Assembly: GCF_022376445.1 (NCBI RefSeq)
Contig: NW_025955165.1
Coordinates: 1 to 64,000, forward strand
Source: Fomitopsis serialis
Taxonomy: Eukaryota > Basidiomycota > Agaricomycetes > Polyporales > Fomitopsidaceae
Direction: 5' to 3'
DNA: 64,000 nucleotides
The first letter of the stretch is position 1. Each line of letters begins with the position of its first letter. A program made the translations under genes and the position numbers. Positions 15,901 through 62,540 of this stretch are shown piece after piece. The notes below the pieces were generated by a model. The model was given only the letters and a program-made list of their open reading frames with translations, was not told the DNA's origin and did not search any database.

Positions 15901-18900
15901 ACTGGCAAGGTACGCAGCAATCCCATTGGCTGCTGATTGACTGATTTGCTTGTCGCGCAGACACCGCATGTTCGACAGTACGAGGTCACGTCGTCGACCA
16001 TAGTCTTCCACCAGACCTCCTCGCGCAGATACAGGAGCGTCTTGCGTGCGCCAAGGTGAGCTAGCACCGAATGGGCATGCTTGATAATCACCTCGCGAAC
16101 ACGTCGTGTTCCGACCAAGATATCCGGAATACACAAGATGTCAACGCCTCCTCGTCGAAGGTAAATCAAACCATCTTTTACTGCGAAGTCCTTGTACTCA
16201 CTTGGTTTGAGTAGGATTTCTCGGAAGAATTTATCTTCAGCATAGCGCCCTTCAAGTGTCTCGGGCATCGGCATACCAAGATCACTCGAGATGAGGACGC
16301 TGGTTGGAATAGTGTCCATTGGGTATGTTATTCCGTGTGCCACATCTTCAGCCTGGTTTTCTACAGGTTCACTGACCTCATCTGTTTCAACAGGCGATGG
16401 CTCATCCTCGGATTCATAGTCTGGTTGACCAGATTCGGAATGCCGAGCATCGTGAACTTGTGAGTCTCCCGATACAGCGCTCTTCGCAGCTTCACTAACA
16501 CGTTCATGTGAATCAAAGTTCCAACGTGTGCGCGGCTTTCCTGCCAGACGCGAGGATCGCCTCGGCTCGAAGTCGATAACTGCTGCAGCACCAGTGTATA
16601 CCGGACGCAGGACGCTTACTGCAGCGTTCTGCAGCGTTGAGAGGTGAGTCGAACTTTGATCTTCGTGATCTCGAAGCTCCTGGCTCACGTATTCACTCGA
16701 TGCGCGCTGTATGCCTAATGGCTCATCGCTGTAGATACGTGACAGGGCGTCAGCGAGTATGTTTGTCTCGCCAGGTATATAATGAATCGTGAAGTTGAAC
16801 TCATTCAGCACGTCCATCCAGCGATGTTGACGCGGTGATAGATGTTTCTGACCCATTATATATTCCAGAGCCTTGTGATCCGTACAGATCCGGAACTTCG
16901 CACCATGTAACAGGCCACGAAAACGTTTCAGGGACTCAACTATTGCGAGCAGCTCCTGTTCGTGCACAGGGTAATTCTGTTGCGCCGAGTTGAACTTGCC
17001 AGACCAGAAGGTGACGACCTTAGCTGTCTTTAGGTCATCTCCCTGACTAATGTATCCACTAGCCCCAGTCAACGAAGCGTCCGTAACGAGGTTGATCGAA
17101 GGTGCATTTGGTGAGTAATCCAATGCAACTCTTCGATTATCACGCATCTTGCTAACAATATCCTTGACCTGTTCAAAGGCTCGCTGGTGCGTATGTGTCC
17201 AGCGCCAGGGGGTAGTAGCCCCGGCAAGCGGCGCAAGTACACCCATTGGGATCCGGATTCCAGGACAGTCAGGTGCGAGGAACCCCACAGCTCCTAGGAA
17301 ACTACTTAAGAGCGACTTGTTCGTAGGAACCTTCCAGTTCGCTACTGAGTCGACTTTGTGCGGATCCATTGCAATACCTTTCCGGTCGATCACATGGCCA
17401 AGAATCTTCAAGTCTGCCGCGAAGAAGCGCATCTTTGAAGGATTTAGATAGAACTTCTCGCGTCGCAGGACTGAAAATACAGTGCGTACGTGTTTCATGT
17501 GATCTTCGACTGTATCTGAGTAGATGACAATGTCGTCCAGATAGACATCCATGAAGACACCAATATATGGCGCGAAAATGTGGTTCATTACCATCTGGTA
17601 CGTCGCACCACCATTGCAGTCGCCTTGCTGCATCACTAGACTCTCCATCGTGCCATCAGGTGTCGTGAAAAGAGTGCGCGGTACGTGTGATTTGTCAACT
17701 CTGATCTGCTCGTACGCATCCTTACCATCAAGCATTGTCCAGTAGGTGTGCCGTACAACGTTCCGAAGAATCGTGTCGATGTCAGGTAAAGGTGAAGCCA
17801 TCTTCACTGTATTTGCGTTATCCTCGCGCTTATCTACAACAGTTCGTATGCCCTGCTGACCATCCTTCCCCGGCTTGGACAGGATAAGCATCGGGGAAGC
17901 ATTCCTTCCGGAGGCGAAGCGCCATCGTCCACTATTGAGGTAAGCTTGCTTCTTTGCCTGCCAGATAGGCTTCAGCGCTTCAGGACACTTAGAAGGTCGC
18001 CATTTGTAGATCTTACCTTCGTCCATCAATGGTATCGTGTGATTGATATCCCGGAAAGGAGGTAGGGCCGCGCGAGTAGGATCTTGACACAGGTCCTCCG
18101 CTTCATGCTGTAACTGGGCGCGCAACTCGTCAAGCGAAGCTTCAAGTACATCAGCAGCCGCAGAACGTACCTCGGTAGCCTCTTCACCAATGATAGGTTG
18201 AGGAACAGGTGAGCCGACTGCAATCCGAGTCGGGTTGAGACTAATAGCAATCTTATGCTGGAAGATGAATGGCGTGCCGAGGATCGCGTCGTAATTATCG
18301 AGGTTGACGATGTCAAAACGTCGCGAGCAGCGGATGTCCTGGTAAGCTATATCAACTGTAGTACTGTAGTTGATCTTTGAGCGTGATCCATGTACTGCGA
18401 GTTGAACAGGTAACGGCTTTGCGAGCAAATCCTTCTTCAAGCCGAGCTGGTCGACGAGCGTTGTCGACAGGAAGTCTGCCATGCAACCTGTATCGAGCAA
18501 TGCTCGCACCGGCTTTCCTTGGATCATGACTTCTACGATCAGTGGCTTCGGGATACGGCGCGCGAAGTCCTTGGGACGCATGGAGGTATGCTCGACAGCA
18601 TGTACTGTGTCTTTTCCGAAGGTACGTCCTTGATCTCGCTTTGCCGAACCAGTCTTAACTGAAGCGCAGTTCATCTTTGCCACAGCACCGCAAAACACGC
18701 CGGGCGGCGACTGCAGTAACCTGCGACGTCGGCGTGCTGCTGCGTCTGTAGTCGGCTCGTCCAAGACGCCCTCCAGATCGACCTCTGGGTCCGCACTCTG
18801 TGCTCGGTCGCACAGCACATCAAACAGGATACGCTGTGCGTCAAAATCCGCACGCGTTATGTCCTCGTGTGTCACGCAAAACCGTAGGTCAATGTTCCGG

Positions 18901-21900
18901 AGGTATACGACATAGGCCTGCGCCATCTCATCCCAGACGACGGACACGCCCTCCGGATCGATCCCCAGGTCCTCTGGAAGTGCTGCGCAAATACGTGCGT
19001 CAAGCCATCGGCAAGCCGTAGGTATCTCGTCTTCTGAAAAGGCGTCCGGGTATGCTGATGTCCTCTCCTCAGACTGTGCATTGCGTTCGCGTACTGCACG
19101 CTGAACCAATTCTGGCACATTAACATTTGGATCCCGTAAGTCCTCTTCATGTACGATGATCGGCCAGTCCGGTTGCAGCCAGTCGGTGAGTTCATAGCGA
19201 TCCCCCAGTGCTATGGCTGAAAAACGCTCTTCAGGAGCCATACCCATTCGTTCGGCATCACGAGGATCTACTCGAGACTGGAAGAGTGCTACTATGTACT
19301 GCACAGTATCTTCCTGGTGAGCATGTGGCCATGCCTCCGTGGGTTCGCTAGACTCGACGACTGGAATGTTAACTGCATTGACAGAAATCTGGGCCTCACT
19401 AGCTGCTCGCGCTAGCTGATCAATGTCCGCAAATCTCGCCGAGCTAGCCTGTACGAACGGCGCTTTCGCCTTCTTTCGACGAGGGCAATTGCGAGCTTCG
19501 TGACCAGTGTCTTTGCACTCAAAGCATCGTCCTTCGGCGCGAAGGCGATCACGCTCTTCCTTACTGAGTTTCGACCGCTTCTCACTGCCATGTGAATGTG
19601 GATGCGAGTGAGGCTTCGGGCCTGTACCCTGTGAGTGACCCTTGTGCTGTGACTTCCCTACGTTGATGTTCTTTGCTTCAACACCAGCCTTCTTCGGAGT
19701 TGAAGCATTGTTCGGTGTGTAGGGCTGCGGGCCATCAACTCGGTTCTGGAACCGACCCCAGGTACGTCCAGGAACACGTCCTGTAAACTCACGGTCTTCT
19801 CTTAGCTTCGCGAAGTATGCGTCTTCTCTGCGCTTCGCATGCTTCACGAGCCGGTCGATCATCGTGACCTCTGGATCAAGACCTCTCTCGATCAAGTACA
19901 GTCTCAGGTACTGGTGAATACCAGACCAAAAGATCTGTACCAATTGACGTGCGGTGACATCCGGGAACCGTGAGGCGAGCTTCTCAATTTCTCGTACAAA
20001 GTCTCGGACCTTTTGACCATGCGCCTGTTTCGCAGACATCAACTTCTCACGAAGCTTTCGCTTGAAGTCACTCGGGAAACAATACTCGAAGAGCGCTTCA
20101 TACAAGGTACGTAGTGTCCATTCACGTTGATGCATTGCTACATGCTGCATGTAGAATCGGCTGGGTTTGTCCGACATGAAGTTGACGACGATCTTCAAGG
20201 TAAGTCGATCATCGAGTTCATGCAACTTGCGCCATGTCTCAACCTCATATACCCAGTGATCAAACAGGTCCAGGTCCGGTTTACCATCCCATACGAACGG
20301 CGTCTTCAGCTTAATGCCGGAAATTGCGCGGTGTAGCCGCCTCTTGTCAGCACGCGTTCGTCGACGATGTGACCGTTCACTTGGGCTCCGATGGCGACCT
20401 CTACTGCCATCTGAGCTGCTCGAGCCTCCATCTGACTCGTTGTCAGATGATGAGTCCGAGCTACTAGGTGAGTTGTCTCCTCCATTCGAGCCATTGTCTG
20501 AAGTGGGGGACTAGGAGGGCCATCGCCGTCGTCATCTGAGTCGGAACCAAACACCTTTGAACTGAAGAAGCCACCTCCCGGGACCTGCGAATCTTCGCGT
20601 TTGAAGCGCGTACTCTTTGCAGCCTTCTTGGGCTGTCCTTGTCGCTCCGAGGTATGATTCTCGCTTCGTCGGTTCGAGGCATCTTGCGCTCCTTCAGACG
20701 GCTGACGTTTATCCTTCTTAGGTTCTGGTGTGCGTCTCGGGGGTGCACTTTGACCGCGGACAAAGGTACGCAAGAATTCCTTCTGTTCCTCGTCTCGGTC
20801 AACACCTTTTCCTTTCTCCTTTGCAGTATATTTCTTTGTTTTAGCCGGTTCTGCCTCGACCTCAACAATTACTGCATTCACAGGTACGTCTCCGTTCTGA
20901 CTTCTGCTAGACTCACCCAACCTTTCGTAGGTAGTCTTTCGCGTGTCGTCACTGAGTGATCGTGCAATCGCGATCTGAAGTTGATTATACTCCTCATCGG
21001 AGTCTTCGGCGGCTGAGTACTCATAAGATGCGCCCTCCGAGTCCGACATAATACTGATTAATTCATCGAACTCAGAGTAATCTACAGGAGTTATCGTGGG
21101 TAGAGTAGGTGAGCTTTGTTCCTCCTCCTTTACTTCTCCATCGGAAGTTCCCCATTCCTCTGGAATAGATCCATAAGGATCATCTGATTCACTCAGATCG
21201 AACCAATCCGGGAAGAAGTAACGTTTAGTTACCCTTGTTTCACTGTTCGTAGTCGACGAAGCTTCTGACTTTCGAACAGGTACCATTTGCCAGCTGTGGT
21301 TCGAGTCGCTCCCCATGTCGGCTGGAGAGGACACAGCGGGGCTGGACTCCCGATCCGTTGATCGGGTCAGCGAGCTCTCGGTGCTAGGCACCTCGCTTTC
21401 CGGCGTCGCATTGCGTCGCGGCGCGCTCTGAGCGACCGGATCACCACTTCGTGGCTGGATCAACGGTGCGTTACTGTAAACCGGATCACCGCTTTGCATC
21501 GGGATCGACGGTGCGCCAGCCGGATCACCACTTCGCAGTGGGATCGACGGCGCGCTATCATCCCTTGCATCGCGTCTTTCGGCGACAGGGCTCAAGTTCG
21601 TACCTCGAACTTCTTGAGTTTGTGCGGCTGACTCAAGGTTTCTTCGCAGCGCGTTCTTGGCACTACGCGTGACCCTGCGAGACCCGGTGGCGTACTTGGC
21701 GAGTACGTCGTAGTCCGTGATGCCCCACTTGACGGCGAGGGCAATGTCAGTCGCAGCGAATAGAGGGGGTCCCTGTTGATCGCGGGCGTCGGGTTCCGGT
21801 GGCGGAAGTTGGTACTCGCTCAACAGGCCCGTCCCTTCAAACACGCCGGGTGCGTACCTCTCTGCGTCGAGGTCGCCTCCCGCCGTACGTACCTCGTCCG

Positions 21901-22962
21901 CGAGCGTTCGTCCTCGCGGCTCGGTGCCGATTTCTTCATCACTGTTAGAGTGAGCTGACATGTCGTTATCTAGATGTTAGTAGGTACCTAAAGAAAAGAA
22001 TTTTCGGGCGCGAGCGGGTGATCAGTCCGTCGCGGAGGGTTTATATGTTGAAACGAGAAAGAAATAACACTCAAAAAAATGTGGGAAATCCGGGTTCGGT
22101 GACGCGAGCGTTAGCGGGTAAAGCGGTGGCGAGCGTCGGTGAAGTCGGAAAACACTAGAAGCAGGCGAGAGCGGGCGGATAGCGGATGAGTGGGCAAATA
22201 CTCGTCTCGTTGCTTGGGCTTCTGCCCGGCGTAGGTACAGTATTTATACATGAGTGAATAAAGACCGAATCGAGCGAGAACGTGAGTGATGTAAGCGAAG
22301 TGAGTCATAGTACAAAGGATGAGTGGCAAGCTGTGGCACAGGCCGCCACTCGGGCTGCCACTGCTGCCACTCCGAGGACAGCCACGAACGGATACGGAAT
22401 GAGTCTAGACCGGGTCGTGGATGAGTAAGTAAAAGTGAGTGGAAAGCGGAATGAAAGGAAAATAAAATGTTTATTCGTACAGCGGACGAGCGCTTGAGCG
22501 ATCGTACCTCAGCGCTTGTGAGATGTAGCCGGCGCCTGCGGCGCTACCCTTACATCAGCGCAGCAGACGCAGTCAGCGAGTGGACTATATCTGACCTTCG
22601 ATGCCGCCGTCACCGGGAACGGCAGTCAGGTCTGCACAGAGAACGTCAATCAGTAACGAACATCTGGGTGGGTAGACGATGTCTGACCGTCGCCGACCGT
22701 GGTCCAGGAAGGTGCTAGGCAACACGAAGACCAGGTCAAACGTCAGACATGATGCATGGTAGAATGTTCAAGAGTATGTACCGCGCTTTTCAAGGTCTAT
22801 GGCAAGACAGTAGATTAGTACAGCAAGACGACTCAAGCAGACATTAAATTACTGACCTTCATGGCGAGGGAAGTGAATTGTGTCACTGGGGCGTGCTGGC
22901 GCAGCAGTGGCGACCTCGAATAGGACACAGGCTAGAACAACGAAAGGAGCGGTGAACTTCAT
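12942..22962 (-). CDS. Secreted kexin-type peptide precursor, copy 1 (retrotransposon in intron 4)
   Basis: Six exons sum to 86 codons plus stop: 22962-22857, 22796-22782, 22714-22688, 22631-22596, 13076-13020 and 12961-12942. Exon 1 is a signal peptide (MKFTAPFVVLACVLFEVATA) plus a short pro-segment ending PRHE. Exon 2 is a 15-nt exon encoding DLEKR, a kexin-type cleavage site. Exons 3-6 encode APSWTTVGD, DLTAVPGDGGIE, a DVTARGP...HSVE unit and DVTARS before the stop. Every intron is phase 1, so each internal exon is symmetric. Intron 4 contains the whole 9.4 kb Gypsy element, whose transcription runs in the same direction, so read-through or premature polyadenylation may silence the gene. 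The exon edges match sister copies at 47.6 and 50.3 kb, which supports the model. Function unknown. Confidence 0.72.
13104..13108 (+). repeat. Target-site duplication TCAGC (left copy)
   Basis: TCAGC directly abuts the left LTR and is repeated at 22555-22559 beyond the right LTR, the 5-bp duplication expected of Ty3/Gypsy integrases. Confidence 0.85.
13109..13583 (-). repeat. 3' LTR of the Gypsy element
   Basis: 475 bp, TG...CA ends, apparently identical to 22080-22554 (constant offset of 8971 bp). Confidence 0.92.
13594..13616 (-). promoter_or_regulatory. Perfect hairpin beside the 3' LTR, near the expected polypurine tract
   Basis: AAGACTTGTC, loop CAT, GACAAGTCTT: a perfect 10-bp stem with a 3-nt loop, 10 bp inside the 3' LTR. 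On the element's sense strand it is followed by purine-rich CTTGGAGGGCGAA immediately before the LTR, the likely polypurine tract priming plus-strand synthesis. Confidence 0.55.
13635..14426 (-). other. In-frame accessory domain at the Gypsy 3' end, with its own well-placed ATG
   Basis: The last 263 residues of the polyprotein start at an ATG in the context GTCACCATGA (14424-14426) and read MTASVNPRQYTADDRIRWDRY. Features are FPGDPPEGY, an RG-rich patch (RYGRGRSRGAPRGGLGG) and an acidic end (DDIDLSMTDDFDDED). The region between chromodomain and this ATG looks degenerate (Ser/His/Thr-rich). It may be translated separately from a subgenomic or spliced RNA, or simply as a polyprotein tail. RG repeats suggest nucleic-acid binding by composition only. 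Confidence 0.45.
13635..21961 (-). CDS. Gag-Pol polyprotein with chromodomain and C-terminal extension
   Basis: Exon A (21961-20555, 469 residues) is an acidic, Ser-rich N-terminal Gag region. A 44-nt GT..AG intron (20554-20511) shifts frame into exon B (20510-13635), giving about 2760 residues. In order: Gag core (TPFVWDGKPDLDLFDHWVYE), zinc knuckle CFECKDTGHEARNC, aspartic protease VRALLDTGC, reverse transcriptase with VYLDDIVIYS, RNase H starting VTDASLTGASG with TDHKALEYI, and integrase with an HHCC finger (HAHSVLAHLG...CRTCGVC). The integrase D,D,E residues are in SIGIDFVGPLP, ISDRDTLFTS and HPQTDGATERANR. A chromodomain follows (WVVDRIVSHSG, FLVRWSTGDETWVPY). About 360 residues of Ser/Gly/Arg-rich extension complete it. 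No stop interrupts the enzymatic regions. If the 44-nt segment is not spliced, frameshifting would be needed. Confidence 0.92.
22080..22554 (-). repeat. 5' LTR of the Gypsy element
   Basis: 475 bp, starts TGTGGG after an A-run and ends TTACA. It should hold the element's promoter. Confidence 0.92.
22555..22559 (+). repeat. Target-site duplication TCAGC (right copy)
   Basis: Pairs with 13104-13108. Confidence 0.85.
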
Positions 22963-43359: not shown

Positions 43360-43398
43360 AAGATACACCTCTGGCGGTTGTTTGCATAGGATAAAAGC
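43360..43398 (+). promoter_or_regulatory. Promoter block of peptide precursor copy 2
   Basis: GACAAGATACACCTCTGGCG then TTTGCATAGGATAAAAGC, the most divergent of the five shared blocks. The ATAAAAG core lies about 65 bp before the ATG, and the following ACATCGCACC matches CCATCGCA of sister copies. Confidence 0.55.
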
Positions 43399-43455
43399 TG
43401 ACTTCAGAGTGCTACTCAGACATCGCACCCCTCAACATTGCGACCTTTCCCCAAC

Positions 43456-44200
43456 ATGAAGCTCGCCTCTGCATTCGTGCTCGTCGCCTGTATCCTCCTC
43501 GAAGTCGCCACCGCAGCTCCGGCCCTTCAGGCTCAGGCCGAGAAACGCTTTGAGACCAGTAGTGGTGCGCACACATCTCATCGTCTGGGGGCATTACAGT
43601 CAAATTATCAACGGACGGCCTGACTGCTCAATTTCTGTAGACATGAAATACGGGGTGTGTTCTCTCATCAGCCTTATGAGCTATTGTGCAACATTGTATA
43701 ACTAATGTTTTAATTATCGATGCTTAGCATTTGGCGGGGATGGTGTGGGCGCAGAGTCCGCCCCGAGAAACGCGGTTTTTTGGGCACCGCCTATGCTTTA
43801 CCCTACCTTGAATCGACGGTGAGGGTGTCAGCTACAAATGATATTTTCTTCCTGCTGATGGCCCATCACGATGGTAGATCTCGAGAAACGCGGGTTTTTA
43901 GGCGCCGCCTATGCTTCCCCCTACCTTGAATCTGATGGTGAGGGGTCCGCTGCTAATGAATATTTCTCTTGCTGAGATCCATCGCATATCGGTAGATCTC
44001 GATAAACGCGGTGCGTATTCTCTTCAGCTATTGCGCATAATACCCTGGCGAAATATGCGACCTGACTATTATGTTTAGCACCCGGCGCGAATGATCCGGC
44101 TGTAGATTCTCAGCTCGAAGGCGCAGCCAGGGTGACACCTATAGCTCCTCTTGGGTTGAATCCGAAGGTCAGAGATTGTCCACTCCCCGATTCTACATGA
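43456..44200 (+). CDS. Secreted kexin-type peptide precursor, copy 2, with duplicated core exons
   Basis: Exon 1 (43456-43564) encodes the signal MKLASAFVLVACILLEVATA and APALQAQAEKRF. A 15-nt exon starts at 43641 (DMKYG; needs one more G before the donor). Exon 3 (43728-43818) carries EKRGFLGTAYALPYLEST. Exon 4 (43878-43937) carries DLEKRGFLGAAYASPYLESD. Exon 5 (43996-44010) is DLDKR. Exon 6 begins at 44079 with APGANDPAVDSQLEGAAR. Thus two near-identical Tyr-containing cores each follow KR. Exon 3 needs one extra C near 43776 and one extra G near 43819 to keep phase 1. Exon 6 either runs to TGA at 44198-44200 or splices at 44166 like its sisters, so the 3' end is uncertain. KR-flanked repeated cores are the layout known from kexin-processed fungal peptides and from dikaritin-type RiPP precursors; no modifying enzyme is assigned. 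Confidence 0.6.
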
Positions 44201-45358
44201 AGAGTGCTTATTCTGTTTGACAGACGGTGAATCTGACGAATGTACGTCCCGATTTGATGCGCATTTGAAGCATGGCTGAACGCGTGAGACATAGGAATGG
44301 CGTCGTTCGTCATTGGATCATTGGAACGTGGTGCTGTCCAGCTCTCAATACATGCTGCGATCGATGGAATGTCCGATGGTTGGACCGAAATCCTAAAGCT
44401 TCACAACAATTCATATGCCTTCATTAGACGAGTCAGTACTTGGTGCGATCACGAATCGACGGCAATGGGATGTTCACTGTGCAGTGCGTTCATCCTCGAA
44501 AATGGAGGCAGGCATCCTGGCACCAACCTCTAGATGATGCTTCAGCCAGCTGGTCTCCTAGCTCCAGTGGTAATCGACTCGGAGCAAAAGACCACGTAAC
44601 ACGTCTTGAAGCGTGAAGCATTTCCAAACAGGAATGGGGTGCGATCGATCGTAAGTCGAGGTCGTGGATCGCTTCCACGAGTCCATTAAGGTTCTTCTTT
44701 ATCCATGTCTGCCTGGAGGCTTTATTACTGACAATACCCTGTGCCTTCGTAAGGATTCAGTGTAGGCATGAAGTCAAACCTCAACTGCGAAGAGGCCAGC
44801 CTGAAGGTCCATGAGAGCTCGGTAAATATTAGGTCCATATTACGAGCGACTTGAGCCTGAGGTGGCAACTCGCCGACACTATTGGCAGTGGTTTTACGGA
44901 CTTGGAGCTCCGCTCACGGGCCACCTCGCATGACATGCGACCAGTCTGAGATTGATTTCTATCAAATCTTGTAGAATGTAAGCGCGGCAATCGCAGACCA
45001 CCTGTCCTTGCGTGCCCAGTTTTGTACTCTCCGTTTCAAACACCATGCACTAATGGAATTTTCCTCGACAGATCTGGTATGGAACGATGCCGCGGCGTGG
45101 ATTGGACACCTCAGTGGAGCCTCTATTATCATTGTGTCAGGTTACTCGGCCGCGTTCTCCACGAGTGGCGGACCATGTGCACACATCTGTTCCGTAGTAG
45201 GCTACTGGGAAAGCGCGTACCCTCCGAGAGCCTGACTGGACGCAGCGACATGCCATTGAACCGAATAGACCAAATGCACAGAAGGACCGACGAATATCTC
45301 GTGCGTCATTTTTGAATCATTGCACTAGTCTCCGGCCTCGTGTTCACTGAATAAGCTA
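44201..45358. other. Intergenic, nothing recognised
   Basis: Short frames only; no repeats strong enough to report. Confidence 0.4.
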
Positions 45359-45410
45359 TGCGCGTCGGACGACACACGTCGTCGGCGGCTGTGTGTATGG
45401 GATAAAAGCA
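45359..45410 (+). promoter_or_regulatory. Promoter block of peptide precursor copy 3
   Basis: GCGCGTCGGACGACACACG and then GTGTGTATGGGATAAAAGC, 65-75 bp before the ATG at 45475; CATCGCAAC follows as in the other copies. Confidence 0.6.
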
Positions 45411-45474
45411 GGCCTGAAAAATCTCCCTGAACATCGCAACCTTCTGCAAAGTCGCGTCTTAACTTCTCAGCACT

Positions 45475-45937
45475 ATGAAGCTCACCTCTACAGTCACTCT
45501 TCTTGCCTGCCTCCTGCTCGAGGTTGCCTCCGCTATGCCAGCGATTCAGGCTGAGAATGAGATTGTGAACGTGCGGCACGGTGCGTGATTTGGTACTGGG
45601 TCGGTGGGACATCAGTATTGACGTGCTCTTGCATTGCCACCGACACAGACGGTATGATTCATCTCACCGACTACCTTGTACCTACTGATGCTTTTCGTAT
45701 AGGCGTCGAATTCATCGGTATTATCCTCTTGAAATCCACTCAACTAGCCTCTGTCCTCGCAACGACGGACTGACTGACTGGCATTGGCACCGTCGAGAAA
45801 CGCGGCGGCCCCATCTACTGGTTGGATAGCGATGAAGAAGGTTAGGCAGCGTAGGCTCATCGAGGGTGTTTATTCTATTTGCTGACTCGTTTCCACTAGC
45901 AACCAACGCGAAAGATGCTGCAAACGATGTGATCTAG
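45475..45937 (+). pseudogene. Secreted kexin-type peptide precursor, copy 3 (doubtful reading frame)
   Basis: Exon 1 (45475-45580, 106 nt, phase 1) encodes MKLTSTVTLLACLLLEVASA and a pro-segment. A possible 3-nt exon lies at 45649-45651. A 15-nt exon GCGTCGAATTCATCG encodes GVEFI in the position where sisters have DLEKR, so the KR is lost there. The next block holds VEKRGGPIYWLDSDEE, with a fresh KR site. Reached from the only nearby acceptor (CAACTAG, ~45750), it has length 93 nt (phase-preserving) but contains an in-frame TGA near 45773. The last exon (45900-45937) is ATNAKDAANDVI and stop. Either a nonsense mutation, or an acceptor just upstream of GCATTGG that I cannot see. Confidence 0.5.
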
Positions 45938-46309
45938 ACGCGCGGTGTCGCCATTCAAGTCGCCTTTCGTGAAGGTTGAATGTTGTCATATGGATGCCCT
46001 TTATGCAACCGTACTCACTGCGTGCAGATGATGAGTAAGACCTAGTACTGTTAACCACAGTTGACGTGACCACGTAGGCATCCGATCCCTGTAATTCTAG
46101 TGACCGCCTCTTGGGGCTATCTCCATCTTCCTGTCAGCGTTAGATACTCGGTGAATCACTTCAGCTGTCTTGCAACCCGCAGATTCAATCCCTTGAAACC
46201 CGATCATCGCAAGACGGCGTGTCCAGTCAAGTTGGGCGAGATCTGCAGCACATGCCAAGACCGCATGTATGATATGTACTAAGTCTAACGAGTCTTCCTG
46301 CCAGTGATC
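45938..46309. other. Intergenic, nothing recognised
   Basis: No conserved frame or element end. Confidence 0.4.
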
Positions 46310-47500
46310 GGCTGCAACAGCTACTATGAAAGAACGAATCGCGTTGAGGCTCTGCATATGAATGTCTACAGTGTGCACTGGTATTGTTATGTACGTCGAG
46401 ATGCACTGGCATGCCAGTCAGGGTGTCGAGGTACCGGAAGCTGTACTTGCACAAACTGAAGTTCTCAAGGTCTTACGTGTGTGGCAAGCACGCTTCAATC
46501 CCGGTGGATTACATCTTTCATTCCATAACTGCAATCCGCATCGTTTTTCTGTGAGAGACATCGGCACGCAATAACCTGCGCCGGTGAGGATCTCAGGATT
46601 TGTTACGAAACCAGCTAACTTATTTACTCGAATGAACGCGCGTCTTGTCACGCATGGCTAAAGTCGCGTGATCGTGTTAAGCCCTGTCACGCGTGGCCCG
46701 AGTCCGTGGAGACTTCAAGGACCGCTTCTCTGATGTGCTCCAGTGTGGCCTCCACCATCCGACACCTACAGACTAATATCCCATCACGCCAGCCAGCGGG
46801 TCCTCCCGCATGTTCCCAAGGATCGTGCCACGGGATGGCGCTGCCTCCGGGCCAGTGAGACCATAGTGAGACCGCTCATGCGATTCTGAGGCGTAACGAT
46901 CACTACTTAGTACTTACAGTAGTACGCGTATAGACCGTCCTGAGACCGGCGCAAGGATGAGGTGCGTCCCAAATGTCTCAGCCTGAGATCCGAGTGCTGA
47001 CCCCCTTGTGCTTCAGTAGATGGAGTGAACAGACATGACACGTAGTATACGCGCCTAGGCCTGCTCTCAAGGAGTACGTCCTACGAGTTTTGGGGGCATC
47101 GTGTGTAGACATCCTTCACCTGTCCCCGGAGACCATCATGTGCCGCGTTGTGCGGAATTTTCATTTCCACCATGCGCTGAACGTCGCTTTTACCCCGCGA
47201 TGTTACACAATGCCTTGCGAGGAACTCCTCCGTGGGCTCGTGAACTTGCGCCCGCGACTAGACCAATCTTAATCAAGGTGCACATAGGTATGTGTTGCCT
47301 GCTTGATGCATAGATACAGCCGCAATTGACAGACTTGAGATGGACATATAGGCACACATCGACAAGATTGCAGATTCGTCCTGAATCGTTCCTGCAATAG
47401 GATCTTCGGTACTGAACAAGGAAAGCCAGTATTTATGATGTTTAGGTCTCACAGCGGAGACAGCACTGATCTCGGGCGACGTGAAGTCGCTGAGGTAACA
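46310..47500 (+). repeat. Segmental duplication, unit 1 (upstream of precursor copy 4)
   Basis: Shared in order with 48345-50190: TATGAAAGRACGARTCGCG (46325/48352), CACGCATGGCTAAAGTCGCG (46652/48628), CCTGAGACCGGCGCAAGG (46940/48926), a GACCATCATG-containing block (47131/49671) and ATAGATACAGYCGC (47311/49841). About 500 bp extra sits in the second copy. Confidence 0.65.
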
Positions 47501-47504
47501 AGTG

Positions 47505-47555
47505 TACGCGTCGGAGAAGGTACGCCGTGGGCGGTTATGTGTGTGGGATAAAAGC
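47505..47555 (+). promoter_or_regulatory. Promoter block of peptide precursor copy 4
   Basis: GCGTCGGAGAAGGTACGCCG then GTGTGTGGGATAAAAGC; nearly identical to the blocks of copies 1 and 5. ATG follows at 47620. Confidence 0.65.
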
Positions 47556-47619
47556 AGAGCTGAGAATGCCACTCGACCATCGCACTTCTCTAGGGTTTTG
47601 CGTCGCATCGTTCGTCAGC

Positions 47620-48084
47620 ATGAAGCTCACCTCCGCATTCGTTTTCTTGGCCTGCGCCTGTTCGAGGTCGCCGTTGCTGCGCCAGCACCCCTTCGGACGC
47701 GCTTTACGCTGATCCCTCCGACGGTAGATAACTTCGTCTGCTCGATTAGTTTGTTGTACTGATTACTGTCTTGTGTAGTAGACCTAACCAAGCGCGGTAT
47801 ATACTCTTGACATTTACCATGCATCATGTCTGACGTTTGATGACCTGTTCTTCGTGTTGCCTAGCACCCGACTGGGTCACGGTCGGCGACGGTTAGACAT
47901 GGTCTACCCACCTATACGTTCGTTACTGGCTGACGTTCCCTGTGCAGATCTTATGCCGTTTCCGGTGACCGGGCGTCGAAGGTCAGTCCTGACTACGTCT
48001 GCTGCTCTGACTCACGGCTTTGTGTAGACGTGACGGCTCGCGGTCCAAGTGCTGACGAGTTGACCATTGGGCATAATCCTAAAG
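47620..48084 (+). pseudogene. Secreted kexin-type peptide precursor, copy 4, frameshifted
   Basis: Exon 1 begins MKLTSAFVFLACA; one missing C near 47658 shifts the rest, which in the other frame reads LFEVAVAAPAPLRTRF as expected. Exon 2 (47782-47796) encodes DLTKR, exon 3 (47865-47891) APDWVTVGD, exon 4 (47948-47981) is two bases shorter than its copy-1 counterpart, and exon 5 from 48028 starts DVTARGPSADELTIGHN. The donor at the end of exon 5 (GAAG|GT in sisters) is changed to AAAGTT, so the 3' end is undefined. Several breaks are of the homopolymer-loss type, but the lost donor suggests real decay as well. Confidence 0.6.
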
Positions 48085-48344
48085 TTTACGCCCTTGCCTT
48101 GAATAGCGTGTCGGTGGTTCTTACGGCATCGGTGTCAGAGAAAGCTAGAGCTTTTGTAGAACATGGTCCATTGTTTCCTTGCTGTGGCAGCGTGCACTGT
48201 ATCCATATCAGATCAATCGGAACGTGGATATCCACATAACATGGACTGCGAAGTTGATGGTACGCCAATGACCCCAGCCCTCAGGTCCCGCATCAGGCTG
48301 AGCTGTCCTGCTTCAGTCTCCGTTGGCGGACCGTACTTGTAAGT
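48085..48344. other. Spacer between duplicated units
   Basis: Open plus frame continues to 48239 but without family support. Confidence 0.35.
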
Positions 48345-50190
48345 AGCAGCTATGAAAGGACGAGTCGCGCTGGGAGTCTGCGCACGAACATCTGCACTGC
48401 TGGTTTGGTCCAGATGTCGTGATGCACCGCATGCGCCGATTGACTAGAAGCTGTAGACCTGAGACGGAAGCTCTGAAGGTCCATTGGTATTACTTGACAT
48501 GTAGCATTCAACTTCTGAGGAGTACGTCTTTGATTCATAAATGTAATGATCCGTGTAGGTTGAGAGAGATCGACACGCAACAACCTGAGGATGGATGAGG
48601 ATTTGGTAAGGATCAACGCGTCCTGTCACGCATGGCTAAAGTCGCGTGATCGTATCAAGCTTCCTGCTGTCACGCGTGTCCTCGACTCCTCGACCCGCAC
48701 AGTCCGCCCCTCGAGTCTCGGACTGGTCGCCGCTTCTCTGATGTGCTCCTGGCCTCAACCGTCTATCCTACACCCAAAAGCCACCTCATCTCGTCTGTCA
48801 CGGGTATCCCCGCACATGCAGTTTCTGGGGACCATGCTGCCGGAAGATGCTGCCCAGTGAAACCATAGTGAGACCGTTCATGCGACTCTTCGTAATGATT
48901 GCTAAACTACATGTACAGGCCATCCTGAGACCGGCGCAAGGCTGAGATGCGTACCGAATATTAAATCCTGATGCGCCCTGTCATGTTGCCGCAGAGGGCG
49001 CGTGATCATATCAATCGCTCAGAGTCGGCTCGGTACTAGTGCCTGCCATGGTTGATGGCTCGACCGACGACAACCCCGCGTCGAAAATATCTATTTGTAA
49101 CCATACAGCAAGGTGAGTGCCTTCTGGTTTCGTTGATGAGTATTGCCTATCCAACAATTGTCCATTGGGTTTTCGCTTTGTAATGGCAGGCTGCCCTCGC
49201 GTTCTTTGACGCATACATTGCTTGATAGGGTGCACATGCAGGCAGTCTGCGATGCCGCCCAGTAAGCATCCATCGATCTGGAGGCCAAGAATCCATGTTC
49301 TCTGGCAAGCTGCCTCGGCCGATCAACAGTGATGCGTCGCGTCCGAGTCTGCCAGCGAAATCCGTGGGCTGTGATTGTCATCTGATCCGCGACGTTCAGG
49401 CTTCTCCGAGTCGAGAAATGTCACTGTAAAAATCAACTAAGCTCCAGCAGAGCAATCACGAATTCGATGCGTCCTGCCTACCCGCGAGAAGCGGACTCTT
49501 CTTTTGACTACTACGTAGCCTCGCAGGCGACAAGTACCGTCAGCCTGAGAACCGAGTGCGGTTCACCAGATGGGTGAACGGATAAGACGTTGTATCGTAA
49601 GTTACACGCCCGCTCTCATAGAGTACATTTCACGAGTTGTTTAGACATCGCGTGTAGACCTGTGCTCAGAGACCATCATGCGCCACCACCCGATGCGCTG
49701 TGCGGAAGCTTCGTTTCCACTGCACCATGCGCTTGCATCCCCGCGACGTGCAATAGCGCCTTGCGAGGAACTCCTTCGTGGGCCCGCCCATGGCTAGACC
49801 AATCAAGGTGCGCATAGCTATGTGTCGACCGCTTGATGTATAGATACAGTCGCGATTGACAGATCTGAGATGGTCATATGGGCTGCAGATCAGAAGAACG
49901 TTGTGTAGTCAACGCTTCAATATACCATATCCGTGAACAATGCGTGTTTCACAGATACGGCCTCCTATCCAAGCTGGCATTTTTGTACGACGATGAAGAA
50001 TGCGGGCAGCCTCACTTATGCACACGTTGGTAAGATTACAGACTCGTCCTGAATTGTTTTCGCAACAGGTTATACTTTACCGAACGGCCAACGCTAGAAT
50101 CCATGATCTTTATGTCTCAACTCGGAGACACAGCACTGATCTCGGGCGACGTGGAGTTGTTGAAAGAATAGGTAAACTCGTCGGAGAAGG
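48345..50190 (+). repeat. Segmental duplication, unit 2 (upstream of precursor copy 5)
   Basis: Second copy of 46310-47500, with an extra ~500 bp around 49000-49500. Part of 49.45-49.6 kb also matches the reverse complement of 23.22-23.46 kb, so three loci share this flank. Confidence 0.65.
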
Positions 50191-50225
50191 TACACCGTGG
50201 GCGCTTGCATGTATGGGATAAAAGC
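50179..50225 (+). promoter_or_regulatory. Promoter block of peptide precursor copy 5
   Basis: CGTCGGAGAAGGTACACCG then CATGTATGGGATAAAAGC; core 70 bp before the ATG; CGACCATCGCATTCC follows, a possible start-site region. Confidence 0.65.
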
Positions 50226-50290
50226 TGAGCTGAGGGTGCTGCTCGACCATCGCATTCCTTTCATTCTTCTCCTCGCATCTCCTCTACAGC

Positions 50291-50763
50291 ATGAAGCTCA
50301 TTACTCCTTTCGTTGTTCTGGCCTGTGTCCTATTCGAGGTCGCCACTGCTGTGCCAGTGCGCCCCACTAACACGATTTACTTCCCTCCCCGCGAAGGTCA
50401 GATAATGTCTGCTCGAGTCGTCTGTTCGTACTGAACCACTGTCTTGTGTATTAGACCTTCACAAGCGCGGTGTGTATTCTTGAACATTTTACTGTGCATT
50501 ATGTCTGACATGTGATGCCTTGTTCCTAGCACCCGGTATCGTTGGTTCTTCCTGGACCTCTAACGACGGTCAGACATCGTCTACCCACCGATGACGTCCA
50601 TTACTGACTGACGTTTTCTGTGCAGAGATTACGGCGCGCGGATTGGCTCACCGATCAGAACCTCGTGTTGACGGTGGCCACGGCGTCGAAGGTCAGATAT
50701 AGTCCGCTCGCTGACTACGTCTGCTGTGCTGACTCGCGGCTTTGTGCAGACGTCACGGCCTGA
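50291..50763 (+). CDS. Secreted kexin-type peptide precursor, copy 5 (intact)
   Basis: Five exons, 79 residues: 50291-50396, 50455-50469, 50530-50568, 50626-50691 and 50750-50763. Exon 1 encodes signal MKLITPFVVLACVLFEVATA and a pro-segment ending PPRE. The 15-nt exon 2 encodes DLHKR. Exon 3 is APGIVGSSWTSND. Exon 4 starts EITARGLAHRSEPRVDGG and ends GHGVE. Exon 5 is DVTA and stop. All introns are phase 1 and 51-60 nt, with donors GTCAGAYAT or GTGTGT. The exon order matches copy 1, except that copy 1 has an additional DVTARG exon. Predicted secretion followed by cleavage after KR would release a peptide of about 39 residues with no cysteines. No family is known to me. Confidence 0.75.
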
Positions 50764-52338
50764 TGAGTTGTCCGGTGGGCACGTTCCCGATTTCTACCAC
50801 CTTCAAGTTACGTGTGGAAAGCGTGCCGGTGGCTCCTATGGCTTCGTCACGCGAAGCTAGATACTTCTTGGGAAAAACATGGTCTATCGCTTCCCTGCCG
50901 AGGTTGCATGCACTGTAACCGTACTATCTTTATAAGAATGTGGTCATTGACATTACTTGAATATCGAAGTTTGTCAACCCGGTGATCGGTCTTCAAGTGG
51001 AAACCGCAGAGAATCCGCGACTCAGACGGTGTACCAATTACCTCAGTCCTCCGAGTGCGGCCAATTGTCACTGCTTCTTGTCAGTATCCCGTTGGCGGAC
51101 CCTACTCCAGTGGCAAACCACTCTGCTCGCGCTGAATAGTCGTGTTTCTCCCCGGAAAACTGTCCGGGCTCGCTGGCTGAGTACGCGTATCCGCTCTTAT
51201 GGCGTCTGTTTGAGGTCTCAGCTTCCCAGTGAGGGTAAGTATATTGGCATACCAGGTGGCACCGCCAGTATCGGGCATGCTTCGGCCTTGACATGTACCA
51301 GTCCGTCACGGTCACACGTACGGCCCGGTACTTGCGCTAAGGACGTTTGCCGTACGTTCGCCTCCGCCGCTCCTCCTCTCAGTCTCTGCGAGGCCGTGCG
51401 CAGTTAGCATGTATCTGGGGGTAGCAAAGCAGTCTACCGCTGCTGTAGACTCGTCGACCTTCTTAGCCTCTGACTCGGGAGACCTTGGACTGTAGCGCTG
51501 AACGACCACTTACCCTTGCTCCGACGCCGCCCCATTCGACATCTCACGACCTGTTGTATCGATGGACATAGGCCCCTCGGAGCAGTTAATGGCATGTTCT
51601 GAATGCTGCATGAATTCCCTCAAGTCATACGTGGCTGGCTTGAGGAAAAGCTGCGGGAGCTAGGCAAGCATCCGTCCGACCCGCACCATGTCCAACGGGC
51701 TCGGATAAAACGCATGCGCTGACGAAACGGGTTCCAGAGTTCGGGTACGTGCGTTACCCATCTGTCGCGTGAAGCAAAATGTAATCCCACTGGCTAGCTG
51801 TAGTCCACTCGTGTGGCGCGCTATCGTTACCGTGGACATTGCGCGTACCAGTCTGTCAACAGTGCAACTCGAACACTGCGACGTCCAAGGAAGTTCATTG
51901 ACAACGACATATCGTGTAACGCGTCACAGAAGGGGAAGCCGGAGGGTGCGATGATTCGTGACTGTAGCAAGCTCGGCAGGGATAAAGACACGGTAAGTAC
52001 TTACTCGTAACGGAATGGTGAGGTCCCTTGTGACTCGCGCGGGTGGCAGGTTCTTCCAACGTCTTCGACATCGATGGATGGGGCGTGACCCTACTGATGG
52101 ATTGGATGATCATAGCAGTACCGAGGTGCCTTCGCTATTGTTTGCTCGTTAAGGACAAGGCCTGTGCCACCCCGAGAGCTGCGTTGACCATTGTCTTTCA
52201 CTCATCCCCACCTTCTTCTCTATCAGCGGCGGGCCTAGTCGACGCCCCTCAGTCTTCCTGCCAACACTCGGTGAGCTGTGTCTAGCCTTCACGATATCAT
52301 GCCACTAACAGGCCTCTGCCGCTCCATAGTTGACATCC
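50764..52338. other. Intergenic, nothing recognised
   Basis: Sequence just after copy 5 retains weak similarity to the 48.06-48.25 kb region; beyond that no gene or repeat supported. Confidence 0.4.
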
Positions 52339-54076
52339 ATGCAGGCATTTCCTGTGCCCGCGGTACGCCGCCTCCTGGCTATCCCAGAGGTACTGGCTCA
52401 GGTGGCAGAAGAGACGTGGTCGAGCAAGAGTCTCGCTGCCCTTGCTAGGACTTGCCGTGACTTCTGTTCTCCTGCCCTCGACAAACTATGGCAACATCAA
52501 CCAGGCCTTGAAAATATCGTGAAGTGCATGCCCGCGGATCTGTGGGAGATGCAGCCAACTCACGATGACGATGGTAGTTCAACCATAGTATGTCTCGCTA
52601 CGTCACTTAGCCAACACCACGTTCATGTGTATATCTTCAGATATTCCAACGACCCCTACGCCCTGAAGACTGGGTCCGATTCGATGTCTATGCCCTCCGC
52701 ATCCGCGAGCTCTGTATCGGCTTCCGAAGATTGTACTACGAGGTTGGCAGACCGAAATTATCAAGCGAGGCGCTAGTCACTTTGGATCAATACAACCCTT
52801 CGAAGGCTTTATTCCCGAACCTTCGTTATTTATACTTGAGCAGCATCACTGATACCGACGTCGTACCGTATCGCCGCCTGTTCCTCAGCCCCGCCTTGCT
52901 CGACCTCGTGATCGAGTGGGAAGTCTTTGACGTCAATGCTGCGGCTCTCCTAGATCACCTCTCCGCACACTGTCAGAGTGTTCGAATACTGAATATCGCA
53001 ACTCAACAGGAGGAATCATGGTCCTCGCCCGGCCCTGTTGAGATCCGAGCTGGTATTTTCGATAGCTTGAAGGCTTTGCATATCCTGTCCTTCATTTCCG
53101 CCGTACCTCTCCCTGCCGCCGCCTTCATGGAACTTCAATCTTTGCCTCATCTTACTGATCTACACATCTCAATACTGGACGAACCCGCATCGCCGTGGAC
53201 ATTTCCTGTCGCTACAGAGTTCCGGCCGTTCCGTGCGCTGCAGCTATTCTTCATCCGATGCTCCCAGGTAACGGACTGCTCCAAAGTGCTGGCAGCATTC
53301 TCCTTCCCTGTGCTAGAGGGCCTCACAATTCGTGCAGGAGAATTCGGCTCCCTGGGACACCTCTTCCGAATCATACGCGACAACTGCTCGCATACGTCTC
53401 TCTGTCACATCAGCATTTGTTGGTGTGACCTGTTCGATCAAGACCCTGGACCAGTGGAAGCCACTGCAAGTGATTTCCGAAATCTGTACGCCTTCCATGA
53501 ACTGCAGGTCCTCTCGGTGGAGACCTTCAATGAGATTCGGCTCACGGATGACGACCTGAGAGACATGGCGCTCTCCTGGCCGTACTTGGAGTCTTTGAAG
53601 CTGCTCCCTAGCAAGGACAAGGAGCGTCCACCAGAGACCATCCGAGTCGCATCCGCCGGCACTCTCGCCGGGCTCATTCACTTCGCAAGCATTGCCCCCG
53701 GCTGCACACACTCCATATCGGGATCGATACCTCGCAGGCCGACGCTGCGCGCATCATCGAGGCGCTCTCCGGCGCCGGGCCGATGCGTATGTCTGCTCTC
53801 AGATGCCTTACCCTTGGCAGATGTGTGCCTGTAGGGGATCCGAACGAGGTTGCGATGTCGCTCGCAATCATATTCCGACGCCTGGAGAAGTTCATAGGCG
53901 GCTACCCACAAGAGAATTCGCCGGAGTGGAAGCCCACAGAATTGCTCCTGCCGGCCTGCGCCTCGTACGTGGCGAGTCACACCGTGTACGTAGAAAGGTG
54001 CGTGAGCCGGCCTGCTTGTCACCAGTCGCTCTCCGAGTTGAGTGCCTCCTCTCGCACTAGCCCTCACTCTGAGTAG
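52339..54076 (+). CDS. F-box protein, frameshifted
   Basis: Start ATG at 52339 (MQAFPVPAVRRLLAIPEVLA). Residues ~10-55 are F-box-like: IPEVLAQVAEETWSSKSLAA then LARTCRDFCSPALDKLWQ. After a short Asp-rich stretch comes DWVRFDVYALRIRELCIGFR, then LFPNLRYLYLSSI and a long array of Leu-rich segments typical of fungal F-box/LRR-like substrate receptors of SCF ubiquitin ligases. Three frames are used (breaks near 52570-52740 and near 53712), after which HIGIDTSQADAARIIEALSG continues to a TGA at 54076. No clear introns in the main body. A degenerate paralogue lies at 12.24-12.56 kb. Such genes are highly duplicated in Agaricomycetes, and the target protein is unknown. Confidence 0.7.
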
Positions 54077-54790
54077 AAGCATGCGATGTCGCATCGGAAT
54101 ATTTGTGTTTCAATAGCAAGACGGGCGTATAGATTGTGGTTTTCCGAAGGCATGTCGTGGTCGCGGCGGAGCCAGCTTTATCTTGCGTACTCTCGAACCG
54201 CAGTGAGACTGGTACGTCGTCTGTCGTGTTGGATGGTGCGTATGACAATGTCCATGACGACGTGTATGATATCGTGTGGGACCGAGACTGTCATGATTTA
54301 CCGCTGGACAGACCCGTGAACTGTTTTTCAAACGCACTGAGTGCTTCCGGCCACCCCTGGAACATGACTGCGTATGTACGTCGCCCATGGGTCAGATTCG
54401 TGGATCGCTGACAGCGCCCGGTGACGGCTAGGTAGATGTATCTGTCAACACCACAATCGCGTTTTTCCCTTAATCTCGTGGCTCGCTAACTCGCTAATTG
54501 AAGCGGTATGCTTTGGTACTGCTACAGGCAGAGCCGTGCACTGCTAGTTCACCACTAATTGCGACGAGTTTCTAGCTGATTCAGTGGTCACTCTTAGGGA
54601 CTGCAGAAAACTTCCGAAAACCACGTCGCCGTGCATGCCGTTGTCTCTGATGGATGTGCCTATGCGGACCACGGTTCCACCATCTCAACAGGCCTTGTGG
54701 GACCGATATGACTTCCGAGCACTCATCCGCATTTGATGGACACTGTCTCCGCGAATCATCTAGACGAACAACGCAGAATGGCGCTGGATG
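54077..54790. other. Intergenic, nothing recognised
   Basis: No supported gene. Confidence 0.4.
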
Positions 54791-54795
54791 GAGGG

Positions 54796-54805
54796 CTATA
54801 TATTG
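54796..54805 (+). promoter_or_regulatory. TATA-like box of peptide precursor copy 6
   Basis: CTATATATTG about 50 bp before the ATG at 54851; differs from the ATAAAAG block of the other five copies. Confidence 0.4.
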
Positions 54806-54850
54806 CGTCGCACGCAGGGCTGCTGACCCCACTCACCTCTGCTCGCCGAG

Positions 54851-55349
54851 ATGAAGGTCACGTCTGCCATCTTCCTCAGCGCTGCTGCTCTGTTCCACGC
54901 TGCTTGTGCGGTCCCACTCGGCGAGATCGACGGTCAGCTCTCTGGACGCGCCAGTAAGGTGTACGTTGTGACGGACGGTATGGTTGCCTCTCGCCTCTGC
55001 TGATCCGGGTCTCGCTGAACGAGTCTTCCTTAGACATCGTGGAACGCACCGGCAATGATGTAGACTCTCCATCTCAGGTTACGAAAAGTGAGAATTCCGG
55101 GAGCATGCAGAACACACGTGCTTTTGCTGACCCGTTCTACTAGTAGACCTCGATAAGCGTGGCAGCGACCTTTACACCGTCACCGATGGTATGGTCGCGC
55201 ACTAGGTCTCGATACTATAGGCTGACGGTCTATGCCACAGACGTGGTAAAGCGCGATGGCGGAATCGTGGCCTATAACGGTGTGTATCTGCTTGACTATC
55301 CAGCTCTTTGCACTGACGATAAACATCAGAACTCGACGAAAGCCTTTAA
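54851..55349 (+). CDS. Secreted kexin-type peptide precursor, copy 6 (divergent, two KR sites)
   Basis: Five exons, 93 residues: 54851-54977, 55034-55087, 55147-55188, 55241-55279 and 55330-55349. Exon 1: signal MKVTSAIFLSAAALFHAACA, then VPLGEIDGQLSGRASKVYVV and TD. Exon 2: DIVERTGNDVDSPSQVTK. Exon 3: NLDKRGSDLYTVTD. Exon 4: DVVKRDGGIVAYN. Exon 5: ELDESL and stop. All four introns are phase 1 and lengths are multiples of three, as in the other copies, although sequence identity is low. YVVTD and YTVTD, and LDKR and VVKR, look like repeats of one ancestral exon. Predicted kexin products are GSDLYTVTDDVV and DGGIVAYNELDESL-like peptides, each with one Tyr. Function unknown. Confidence 0.7.
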
Positions 55350-55723
55350 ACGAAGACCTATGTTCACAAGAATCCAAGCTATATCGGGGGAGCATGGTCC
55401 GATGATGGGCAGCCGTAGACTCGATGAGTCGTTGACAAGGAGCATATCTTGTAGGCTATACGTAGTGGTGAATGGTTCTGCTAGCATTGGCAATTCAAAA
55501 TCTTCGTGTGAACTCCATGTTGTGAACTGTGAACCGCATCCAGTGCGGTGCACGGCGGCGGGTGTTTGCTAGCACTTTTTATGTTGATGCTCTATAGTGA
55601 TAGTCAAAGGGAGAGCTTAAATAAGAAGATGTCCCGGTGACGGGAATGAACGGTCCATCACCATCGCAAATGTCAAGTCCAAAATGGTGATCACCAAGTG
55701 ATCACCAGTACGTCTCGTAGTAC
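55350..55723. other. Intergenic spacer
   Basis: Convergent end of copy 6 and the S28 peptidase; nothing else seen. Confidence 0.4.
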
Positions 55724-58508: not shown

Positions 58509-58535
58509 TTTTTTTTTTTTTTTTTTTTTTTTTTT
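58509..58535 (-). repeat. Poly(A) tail of the LINE
   Basis: 27 uninterrupted T on the plus strand. Confidence 0.9.
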
Positions 58536-62208: not shown

Positions 62209-62216
62209 GGAAGGTC

Positions 62217-62540
62217 ATGGTACAGCCGACGCGCAGTCTCGTGGAACAGGATGGGATGGGCCGACGCCGGCCGACCGCGACTGTCTCACGGAAGGCAATC
62301 GGGTCGGCCGAGGGCAAGGCGGGCAAGGCGGGCAAGGCGGCGCGTGGGACTATTGGCTCTCAAGACGGATTGGTTCACTACCCAACGCAGCTCGATACAA
62401 AAATGGACCATACGTTAGTAGAAATGAATCAAATTAGTGACTGCCAAACATTCTTGTCCAGCCGACGATTGTGTCTCCCCCATGACGATGCACTACCCGA
62501 CTGTGGGCTGGAGATGGTTTGCGGCCGACCACCGTCTTAG
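62217..62540. other. Boundary between the LINE and the minisatellite
   Basis: Contains GGCAAGGCGG tandem triplet at ~62321-62340 and degenerate copies of the CCGACCGTC word of the neighbouring array. Confidence 0.4.

Follow-up and report, generated by a model that had tools for sequence, protein, structure and literature searches.

Candidate precursor genes for KEX2-processed peptides built from short phase-1 exon cassettes in Fomitopsis serialis

What is encoded by six related loci that share one contig of the fungus Fomitopsis serialis? F. serialis (Polyporales, Fomitopsidaceae) is a polypore bracket fungus and a brown-rot decayer of wood. Its assembly comprises 66.2 Mb in 806 contigs, and the window considered here is the first 64,000 nucleotides (nt) of one of them (C119:1-64000). 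The loci, termed copies 1 to 6, start with ATG codons at 43456, 45475, 47620, 50291 and 54851 on the plus strand and at 22962 on the minus strand. Exon 1 can be aligned among all six, and so can the upstream sequence, except in copy 5. An earlier note on this DNA assigned one architecture to the six loci and read them as modular secreted-peptide precursors with kexin-type sites on symmetric short exons. The second proposal is supported as a reading. The first stands for the six ATGs, exon 1 and, copy 5 apart, the upstream sequence, but the architecture is clean in copies 4 and 5 only. The loci are probably genes for precursors of the KEX2-processed repeat protein (KEP) type, built of exchangeable exon cassettes.

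The family extends beyond the window. Pooled genome searches, in which only the best candidates were scored, yield at least 25 exon-1 sequences, with 6 on C119, 10 on C6, 7 on C406 and 2 on C13. C406 is mostly ~97-99.7% identical to C6, and window positions 54291-58510 match the end of C6 with 97.3% identity; two haplotypes of the genome seem to be partly assembled. When the seven C406 sequences and the C6 copy of window copy 5 are taken out as haplotype copies, at least 17 loci remain. A search of the same genome for an allele-like second copy of 51900-53400 and of the copy 1 region found none. Therefore, these parts may be collapsed, hemizygous or missing. If C6 continues the window chromosome past 58.5 kb, the cluster would extend over tens of kb; this join is conjectural, since C119 carries transposon sequence beyond that point. 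At C6_128, exon 1 is present and no family exons were found downstream of it. At C6:128188 and C406:20132, the family exon 1 is followed by what we take to be kinase-like coding sequence in place of peptide exons. C13_12 and C13_57 give poor exon chains.

Eleven gene models could be settled: copy 4, copy 5, copy 6 before an insertion, C6_138, C6_134, C6_130, C6_118, C6_114, C6_112, C6_109 and C6_97. Counts drawn from them leave aside 6 of the 17 loci (copies 1, 2 and 3, C6_128, C13_12 and C13_57). The 11 models contain 62 introns, with a median length of 58 nt and a range of 50-82 nt. Among 52 internal exons, 48 are at most 51 nt long and 14 measure exactly 15 nt, so that the coding sequence consists mostly of short symmetric exons, a micro-exon layout. 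Two forms occur. In the split form, the linker D-L-x-[KA]-R has a 15-nt exon to itself and the core follows on the next exon, of ~27-45 nt. Examples are DLHKR followed by APGIVGSSWTSND in copy 4, DLEKR followed by APSWTTVGD in copy 6 and DLDKR followed by APGAND... in C6_138. The largest split-form gene, C6_134 (C6:134251), has eight linker-core pairs and 18 exons, with 585 coding nt within 1603. In the fused form, linker and core share a single exon of ~39-54 nt, as in the six units of C6_114, such as DLDKR-TGGEVYITPPD. The two forms may interconvert through intron gain or loss. In 24 of 25 sequences, exon 1 encodes a hydrophobic start and A-x-A, both judged by eye and pattern, and A-x-A is followed by x-P-x. 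Its size in copies 1 to 6 is 109, 106, 104, 106, 127 and 106 nt; the 106 nt previously given for copies 1, 3 and 5 thus belong to copies 2, 4 and 6. A KR site on an exon of its own, as the earlier note described, was found as DLHKR in copy 4, DLTKR in copy 3, DLEKR in copy 6 and DLDKR in copy 1.

Could such exons be chance patterns in repeated DNA, with no genes present at all? Exon chains were built from each ATG by a script that allows all phases and uses splice scores set by hand. All 25 family sequences, which include haplotype copies and are not all independent, were compared with 600 control ATGs elsewhere on C119 and C6. In the family, 103 of 113 introns are in phase 1, compared with 171 of 471 in the controls, which agrees with the earlier statement that the short exons are flanked by phase-1 introns. 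When chains with at least four introns are considered, 14 of 17 are entirely phase 1 in the family and 0 of 30 in the controls. The three that fail (C6_144, C406_26 and C406_7) are haplotype copies, and the other copy of each locus passes. C6_144 is close to the end of its contig, and its alignment with copy 5 has four gaps of one base each, which may be assembly errors. The exons are admittedly very short and the chain scores overlap: the two best controls reach 5.8 and 5.7, copy 4 reaches 4.2 and copy 5 reaches 5.6. A chance origin is nevertheless very unlikely, as the uniform phase, the agreement with public gene models and a third-position bias alongside near-random introns all speak against it.

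Public models are identical to our own for copy 4 (P0013) and C6_138 (P0011). Near-identical ones exist for copy 5 (P0012, one acceptor off) and C6_112 (P0010, different at the end). In C6_118 and C406_11, one acceptor was shifted to fit public model P0003, and the agreement between C6_118 and P0003 is therefore not independent. P0001 (C6_109), P0015 (C6_97) and P0017 (C6_130) match partly and then read on; P0016 (copy 6) runs into a long terminal repeat (LTR) element, and P0021 (copy 1) goes out of frame. Three further models (P0014, P0018 and P0020), from environmental contigs of 1347-1800 bp, continue without a break over several of the expected exon joints; in P0014, this includes the linkers DMKIR and DIDKR. 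If these contigs are transcripts, they would show splicing. P0006-P0008 look like genomic sequences in which the intron that separates the same G and D residues has been read through.

The repeat units speak for translation. Six 42-nt core exons of C6_134 (6 of its 8 cores, equal in length; two 39-nt cores were left out) differ at codon positions 1, 2 and 3 in 18, 19 and 100 of 210 comparisons. The introns between units have identities of 0.76 and 0.74, compared with 0.72 in one shuffled set. In C6_114 and C6_109, eight units of 48 nt (a further one of 45 nt was left out) yield 84, 85 and 237 differences of 448; in both sets, the pairwise counts come from related units and are not independent. 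This coding constraint points to purifying selection. The old exon duplicates have kept their peptide, and without translation there is hardly an explanation for this. A change in unit number is visible as well. C6_109 and its haplotype partner C406_1 are identical over the compared stretch save for one extra exon plus intron in C406_1, and this exon adds one further LEKRVGGEVYTSPPD unit in frame. The extra intron differs from the neighbouring one, which disfavours a simple assembly duplication. Hence, the in-frame gain or loss of exons that had been predicted is seen here as a one-unit difference between haplotypes. In C406_26 (C406:26180), the haplotype partner of C6_134, exon 1 is one base shorter and the frame is lost.

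Which peptides would be released? A cutting rule was applied to the 11 precursors that uses dibasic sites as well as AR or TR before AP or EP and retains peptides of at least 6 residues after the first site. It predicts 39 peptides, not independent of each other because repeated units are among them, and 33 of them contain G-x(0-3)-Y. In 1000 within-peptide shuffles, the mean was 15.5 and the maximum 23. Fourteen of the 39 peptides start with x-P or x-A, the form of STE13 dipeptides (PMC6339444, PMC9769878). Twelve of these 14 begin with AP or EP, 8 of them behind AR/TR sites where the cutting rule itself used AP/EP. Cores of the type TGGE(A/V)Y, such as TGGEAY, recur in the Rhodofomes roseus homologues P0002, P0004 and P0005, and TSPGGG-type cores recur in R. 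roseus P0019 and, weakly, in Daedalea quercina P0022 (E 0.14). The idea that cores differ sharply between copies and change fast is consequently only partly sustained. It fits the comparisons of copy 4 with copy 6 and of copy 5 with C6_118, which lack a third-position bias, but not the shared G-x(0-3)-Y, the constrained repeat units and the two core types that recur in another species, one of them weakly in a third. Pfam searches with 10 family or homologous proteins gave two matches, with E 0.32 and 0.0056, neither of which reached the curated cut-off; a PDB profile search with six precursors gave no match at E<=1, and a literature search for GGEAY/GGEVY gave nothing fungal by title. The core sequences are now definite enough for mass-spectrometry searches and for signal or inhibitor tests, e.g. 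HVGGIYGVDADE, TGGEVYITPPD and SDLYTVTDD.

Tyrosine in the core recalls the dikaritins (ustiloxin, phomopsin), which the earlier note named, next to kexin-processed peptides, as the nearest concept and whose precursors are likewise repeated and cut by KEX2. If the family were dikaritin-type ribosomally synthesised and post-translationally modified peptides, the core Tyr would be oxidised and the peptide cyclised by the tyrosinase encoded at 37.7-39.6 kb together with unlinked UstYa enzymes. The Tyr present in 33 of 39 peptides would suit this, as would the Tyrosinase_C domain at 39062-39592 near copy 1 and at least 33 UstYa matches elsewhere in the genome. However, tyrosinases are common in such fungi. 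Cyclisation of ustiloxin and phomopsin needs a tyrosinase, but UstYa (DUF3328) genes lie near only 6.1% of Basidiomycota KEPs (PMC7329392). Among the 33 matches listed here, none is on the short contigs that carry the family (C119, C6, C406, C13). This leaves the nearby tyrosinase gene as the point in favour and the missing UstYa linkage as the point against, and we regard a dikaritin route as unlikely. As an observation in its own right, the tyrosinase gene (Tyrosinase_C by Pfam) occupies window positions 37581-39592 on the plus strand, ~4 kb upstream of copy 1. The listed UstYa matches (on C41, C285, C151, C113, C357 and others), several of them paired and none near the family, may mark dikaritin-like clusters.

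The state of the window copies has to be weighed next. Their features are as follows.

43456..43564, plus strand: copy 1, exon 1, predicted signal peptide, 109 nt
43878..43937, plus strand: copy 1, candidate exon DLEKR-GFLGAAYASPYLESD, 60 nt, phase 1
43996..44010, plus strand: copy 1, candidate 15-nt exon DLDKR
45475..45580, plus strand: copy 2, exon 1, 106 nt
45703..45717, plus strand: copy 2, candidate 15-nt exon GVEFI
47620..47723, plus strand: copy 3, exon 1, 104 nt, broken frame
47782..47796, plus strand: copy 3, candidate 15-nt exon DLTKR
47865..47891, plus strand: copy 3, candidate core exon APDWVTVGD, 27 nt
50291..50396, plus strand: copy 4, exon 1 (public model P0013 identical)
50455..50469, plus strand: copy 4, exon 2, 15 nt, DLHKR
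50530..50568, plus strand: copy 4, exon 3, core APGIVGSSWTSND
50626..50691, plus strand: copy 4, exon 4, EITARGLAHRSEPRVDGGHGVE
50750..50763, plus strand: copy 4, exon 5, DVTA and stop
54851..54977, plus strand: copy 5, exon 1, 127 nt (public model P0012 differs at one acceptor)
55034..55087, plus strand: copy 5, exon 2
55144..55188, plus strand: copy 5, exon 3, LDKR-GSDLYTVTD, start maybe 3 or 6 nt further in
55241..55279, plus strand: copy 5, exon 4, VVKR-DGGIVAYN
55330..55349, plus strand: copy 5, exon 5, ELDESL and stop
22857..22962, minus strand: copy 6, exon 1 (public model P0016)
22782..22796, minus strand: copy 6, exon 2, 15 nt, DLEKR
22688..22714, minus strand: copy 6, exon 3, core APSWTTVGD
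22596..22631, minus strand: copy 6, exon 4, DLTAVPGDGGIE
13109..22555, minus strand: LTR retrotransposon in the intron between copy 6 exons 4 and 5
13020..13076, minus strand: copy 6, exon past the LTR element, DVTARGPDTDEVFSGHSVE
12942..12961, minus strand: copy 6, candidate last exon, DVTARS and stop

The end of copy 5 at 55349 is exactly where the earlier note had let the cluster end. In copy 1, no chain that stays in frame through its KR exons could be found, and in copy 2, reading of the sequence revealed no in-frame AG acceptor for its KR exon. The 104-nt exon 1 of copy 3 is incompatible with phase 1, an early stop lies in frame, and the fourth candidate exon has 34 nt. For the small indels in copies 1-3, assembly errors are a conceivable cause. 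Copy 6 is interrupted by an LTR element with a 2291-aa gag-pol-like open frame, whose flanks suggest a 5-bp target duplication. Its LTRs (13109-13584 and 22080-22555) are identical, which indicates a recent insertion. With copies 1, 2, 3 and C406_26 broken and copy 6 interrupted, the cluster appears to show birth and death of its members.

Several of these facts weigh against the proposed KEP-type cassette genes. In the window, only copies 4 and 5 look intact, whereas the other four seem broken or interrupted, and the splice scores behind all exon chains were set by hand. Copies 4 and 6 each carry a single dibasic site and no repeated core, and they are among the sources of the 6 of 39 peptides that lack G-x(0-3)-Y. 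The differences between their first exons are spread evenly over the codon positions (4, 6, 5), as are those between copy 5 and C6_118 in exon 1 (2, 2, 3) and in the ungapped exon 3 (8, 8, 7). In C6_134, the linkers are mostly AR instead of dibasic; a search with its protein gave no homologue at E<=1 among 7997 scored candidates, and no public model was found. Could the products instead be small secreted effectors that work uncut, as whole proteins, with incidental KR and AR sites? Copies 4 and 6, with their single dibasic sites, their lack of repeats and their unbiased differences, would be compatible with this. The tandem linker-core repeats of C6_134, C6_114, C6_109 and C6_112 and the placement of the linker on an exon of its own in several copies speak against it and make whole-protein effectors improbable, somewhat more so than dikaritins.

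For the cassette-built KEP precursors, we infer the following course of splicing, processing, secretion and function. Exon 1 would supply the signal peptide and then the x-P-x start, and the later exons, symmetric with phase 1 at both ends, would be joined by the spliceosome before the precursor enters the endoplasmic reticulum. The x-P-x start may help export from there via the Erv29/Surf4 receptor; a hydrophobic-Pro-hydrophobic N-terminal motif is bound by Surf4/Erv29p (PMC6097701). In the Golgi, KEX2 would cut after KR or RR and probably after a single R. A kexin P-domain gene is present at C68:470309. For KEPs, linear peptides, STE13-type trimming and apparent cuts after single arginines have been reported (PMC9769878), and the latter make the AR linkers of C6_134 plausible cleavage sites. 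KEX1 would trim the basic end, and an STE13-like protease would take off any leading AP or EP. The secreted products would be linear peptides with a core of the form G-x(0-3)-Y; most likely they would serve as signals outside the cell or in competition, the two leading options for function. Since the introns share one phase, unequal crossing-over between them could add or delete whole peptide units in frame. Furthermore, the cleavage linker sits on its own symmetric 15-nt exon, which raises the tentative possibility of a splice-programmable precursor. Inclusion or skipping of a linker exon would release or fuse adjacent peptides, and a partly broken gene such as copy 1 could stay productive if its damaged core exons were skipped. 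If so, one locus could yield secreted peptides in many combinations, and the arrangement would have arisen independently of the schistosome micro-exon genes (MEGs) discussed below.

Among extracellular signals, mating pheromones of the alpha-factor type come to mind. Yeast alpha factor has an APV-like start after the signal peptide that resembles the x-P-x start of the family, and ascomycete alpha-pheromone precursors carry similar KEX2/STE13-style junctions. Twelve of the 39 peptides start with AP or EP, 8 of them through the cutting rule itself, and alpha-factor-like KEPs exist in Basidiomycota (PMC6339444). However, basidiomycete mating pheromones are of the a-type (PMC6339444, PMC9769878), and matches to STE3 receptors lie on C734, C287, C370, C541 and C223 and on none of the family contigs. 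A search for STE2 receptors found no match in the genome, but control genomes were equally silent, so that this negative carries no weight. An alpha-type pheromone is scarcely credible. Apart from the peptide family, the STE3-type receptors form dense arrays on C734 and C287, perhaps a B mating locus in two haplotypes.

The surroundings of the cluster contain further genes. Pfam searches with ten open reading frames of the window assigned families to four (DDE_1, Sterol-sensing, Tyrosinase_C and 2-Hacid_dh_C) and to six none. A peptidase-like gene, perhaps of the S28 type, adjoins copy 5 at 56494-57843 on the minus strand; its one scanned open frame had no Pfam match. Where the match to C6 ends, a 1180-aa reverse-transcriptase-like open frame, which we assume from its motifs to be a non-LTR element, is located at 58672-62214 on the minus strand. 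It is followed by an 84-nt tandem repeat at 62517-63320 (seven overlapping reports) with an open frame running through.

How do the predicted genes compare with known systems? By layout, they would belong to the KEPs, a known class with some expanded families in Basidiomycota (PMC7329392), contrary to the earlier view that no named family has such a layout. What they would share with KEPs is a predicted signal peptide, a series of short cores set between putative KEX2 sites and, in some, STE13-type XP dipeptides. Different is that cores and even linkers reside on phase-1 exons of their own, that C6_134 uses mostly AR and that copies 4 and 6 have no repeat. Measured by reading against a published filter of at least 3 tandem repeats of at least 8 aa between dibasic KEX2 sites (PMC7329392), C6_114 and C6_109 seem to qualify, the eight repeats of C6_134 have mostly AR sites, copy 5 has only two related units, and copies 4 and 6 do not pass. 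The exon-cassette design is what appears to be new: three KEP studies (PMC6339444, PMC7329392, PMC9769878) never use the word 'exon' in their main text, and a search for KEX2 together with exon and alternative splicing gave, by title, nothing on fungal peptide cassettes. As these surveys begin from annotated proteins, genes made of 15- and 42-nt exons can escape them, such as C6_134 with its eight cores. In another mushroom, kep knockouts had no phenotype, and other KEPs have been expressed in Pichia (PMC9769878). With such a layout, a set of peptides can expand or contract in frame by simple physical means, as one haplotype pair displays. According to the abstract of a Trichoderma microexon study, no functional microexons had been described earlier in filamentous fungi. 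The closest likeness in exon structure is found in the schistosome MEGs, which have secreted products, a conserved signal peptide and many short exons in multiples of three, most of their micro-exons being 15 bp long (PMC10526429). MEG introns measure 100 to almost 5000 bp compared with 50-82 nt here, and kexin cutting goes unmentioned in the parts of that MEG account available to us (PMC10526429). The likeness is one of layout and homology is not claimed, yet fungal exon-cassette genes and schistosome micro-exon genes form a parallel that can be tested.

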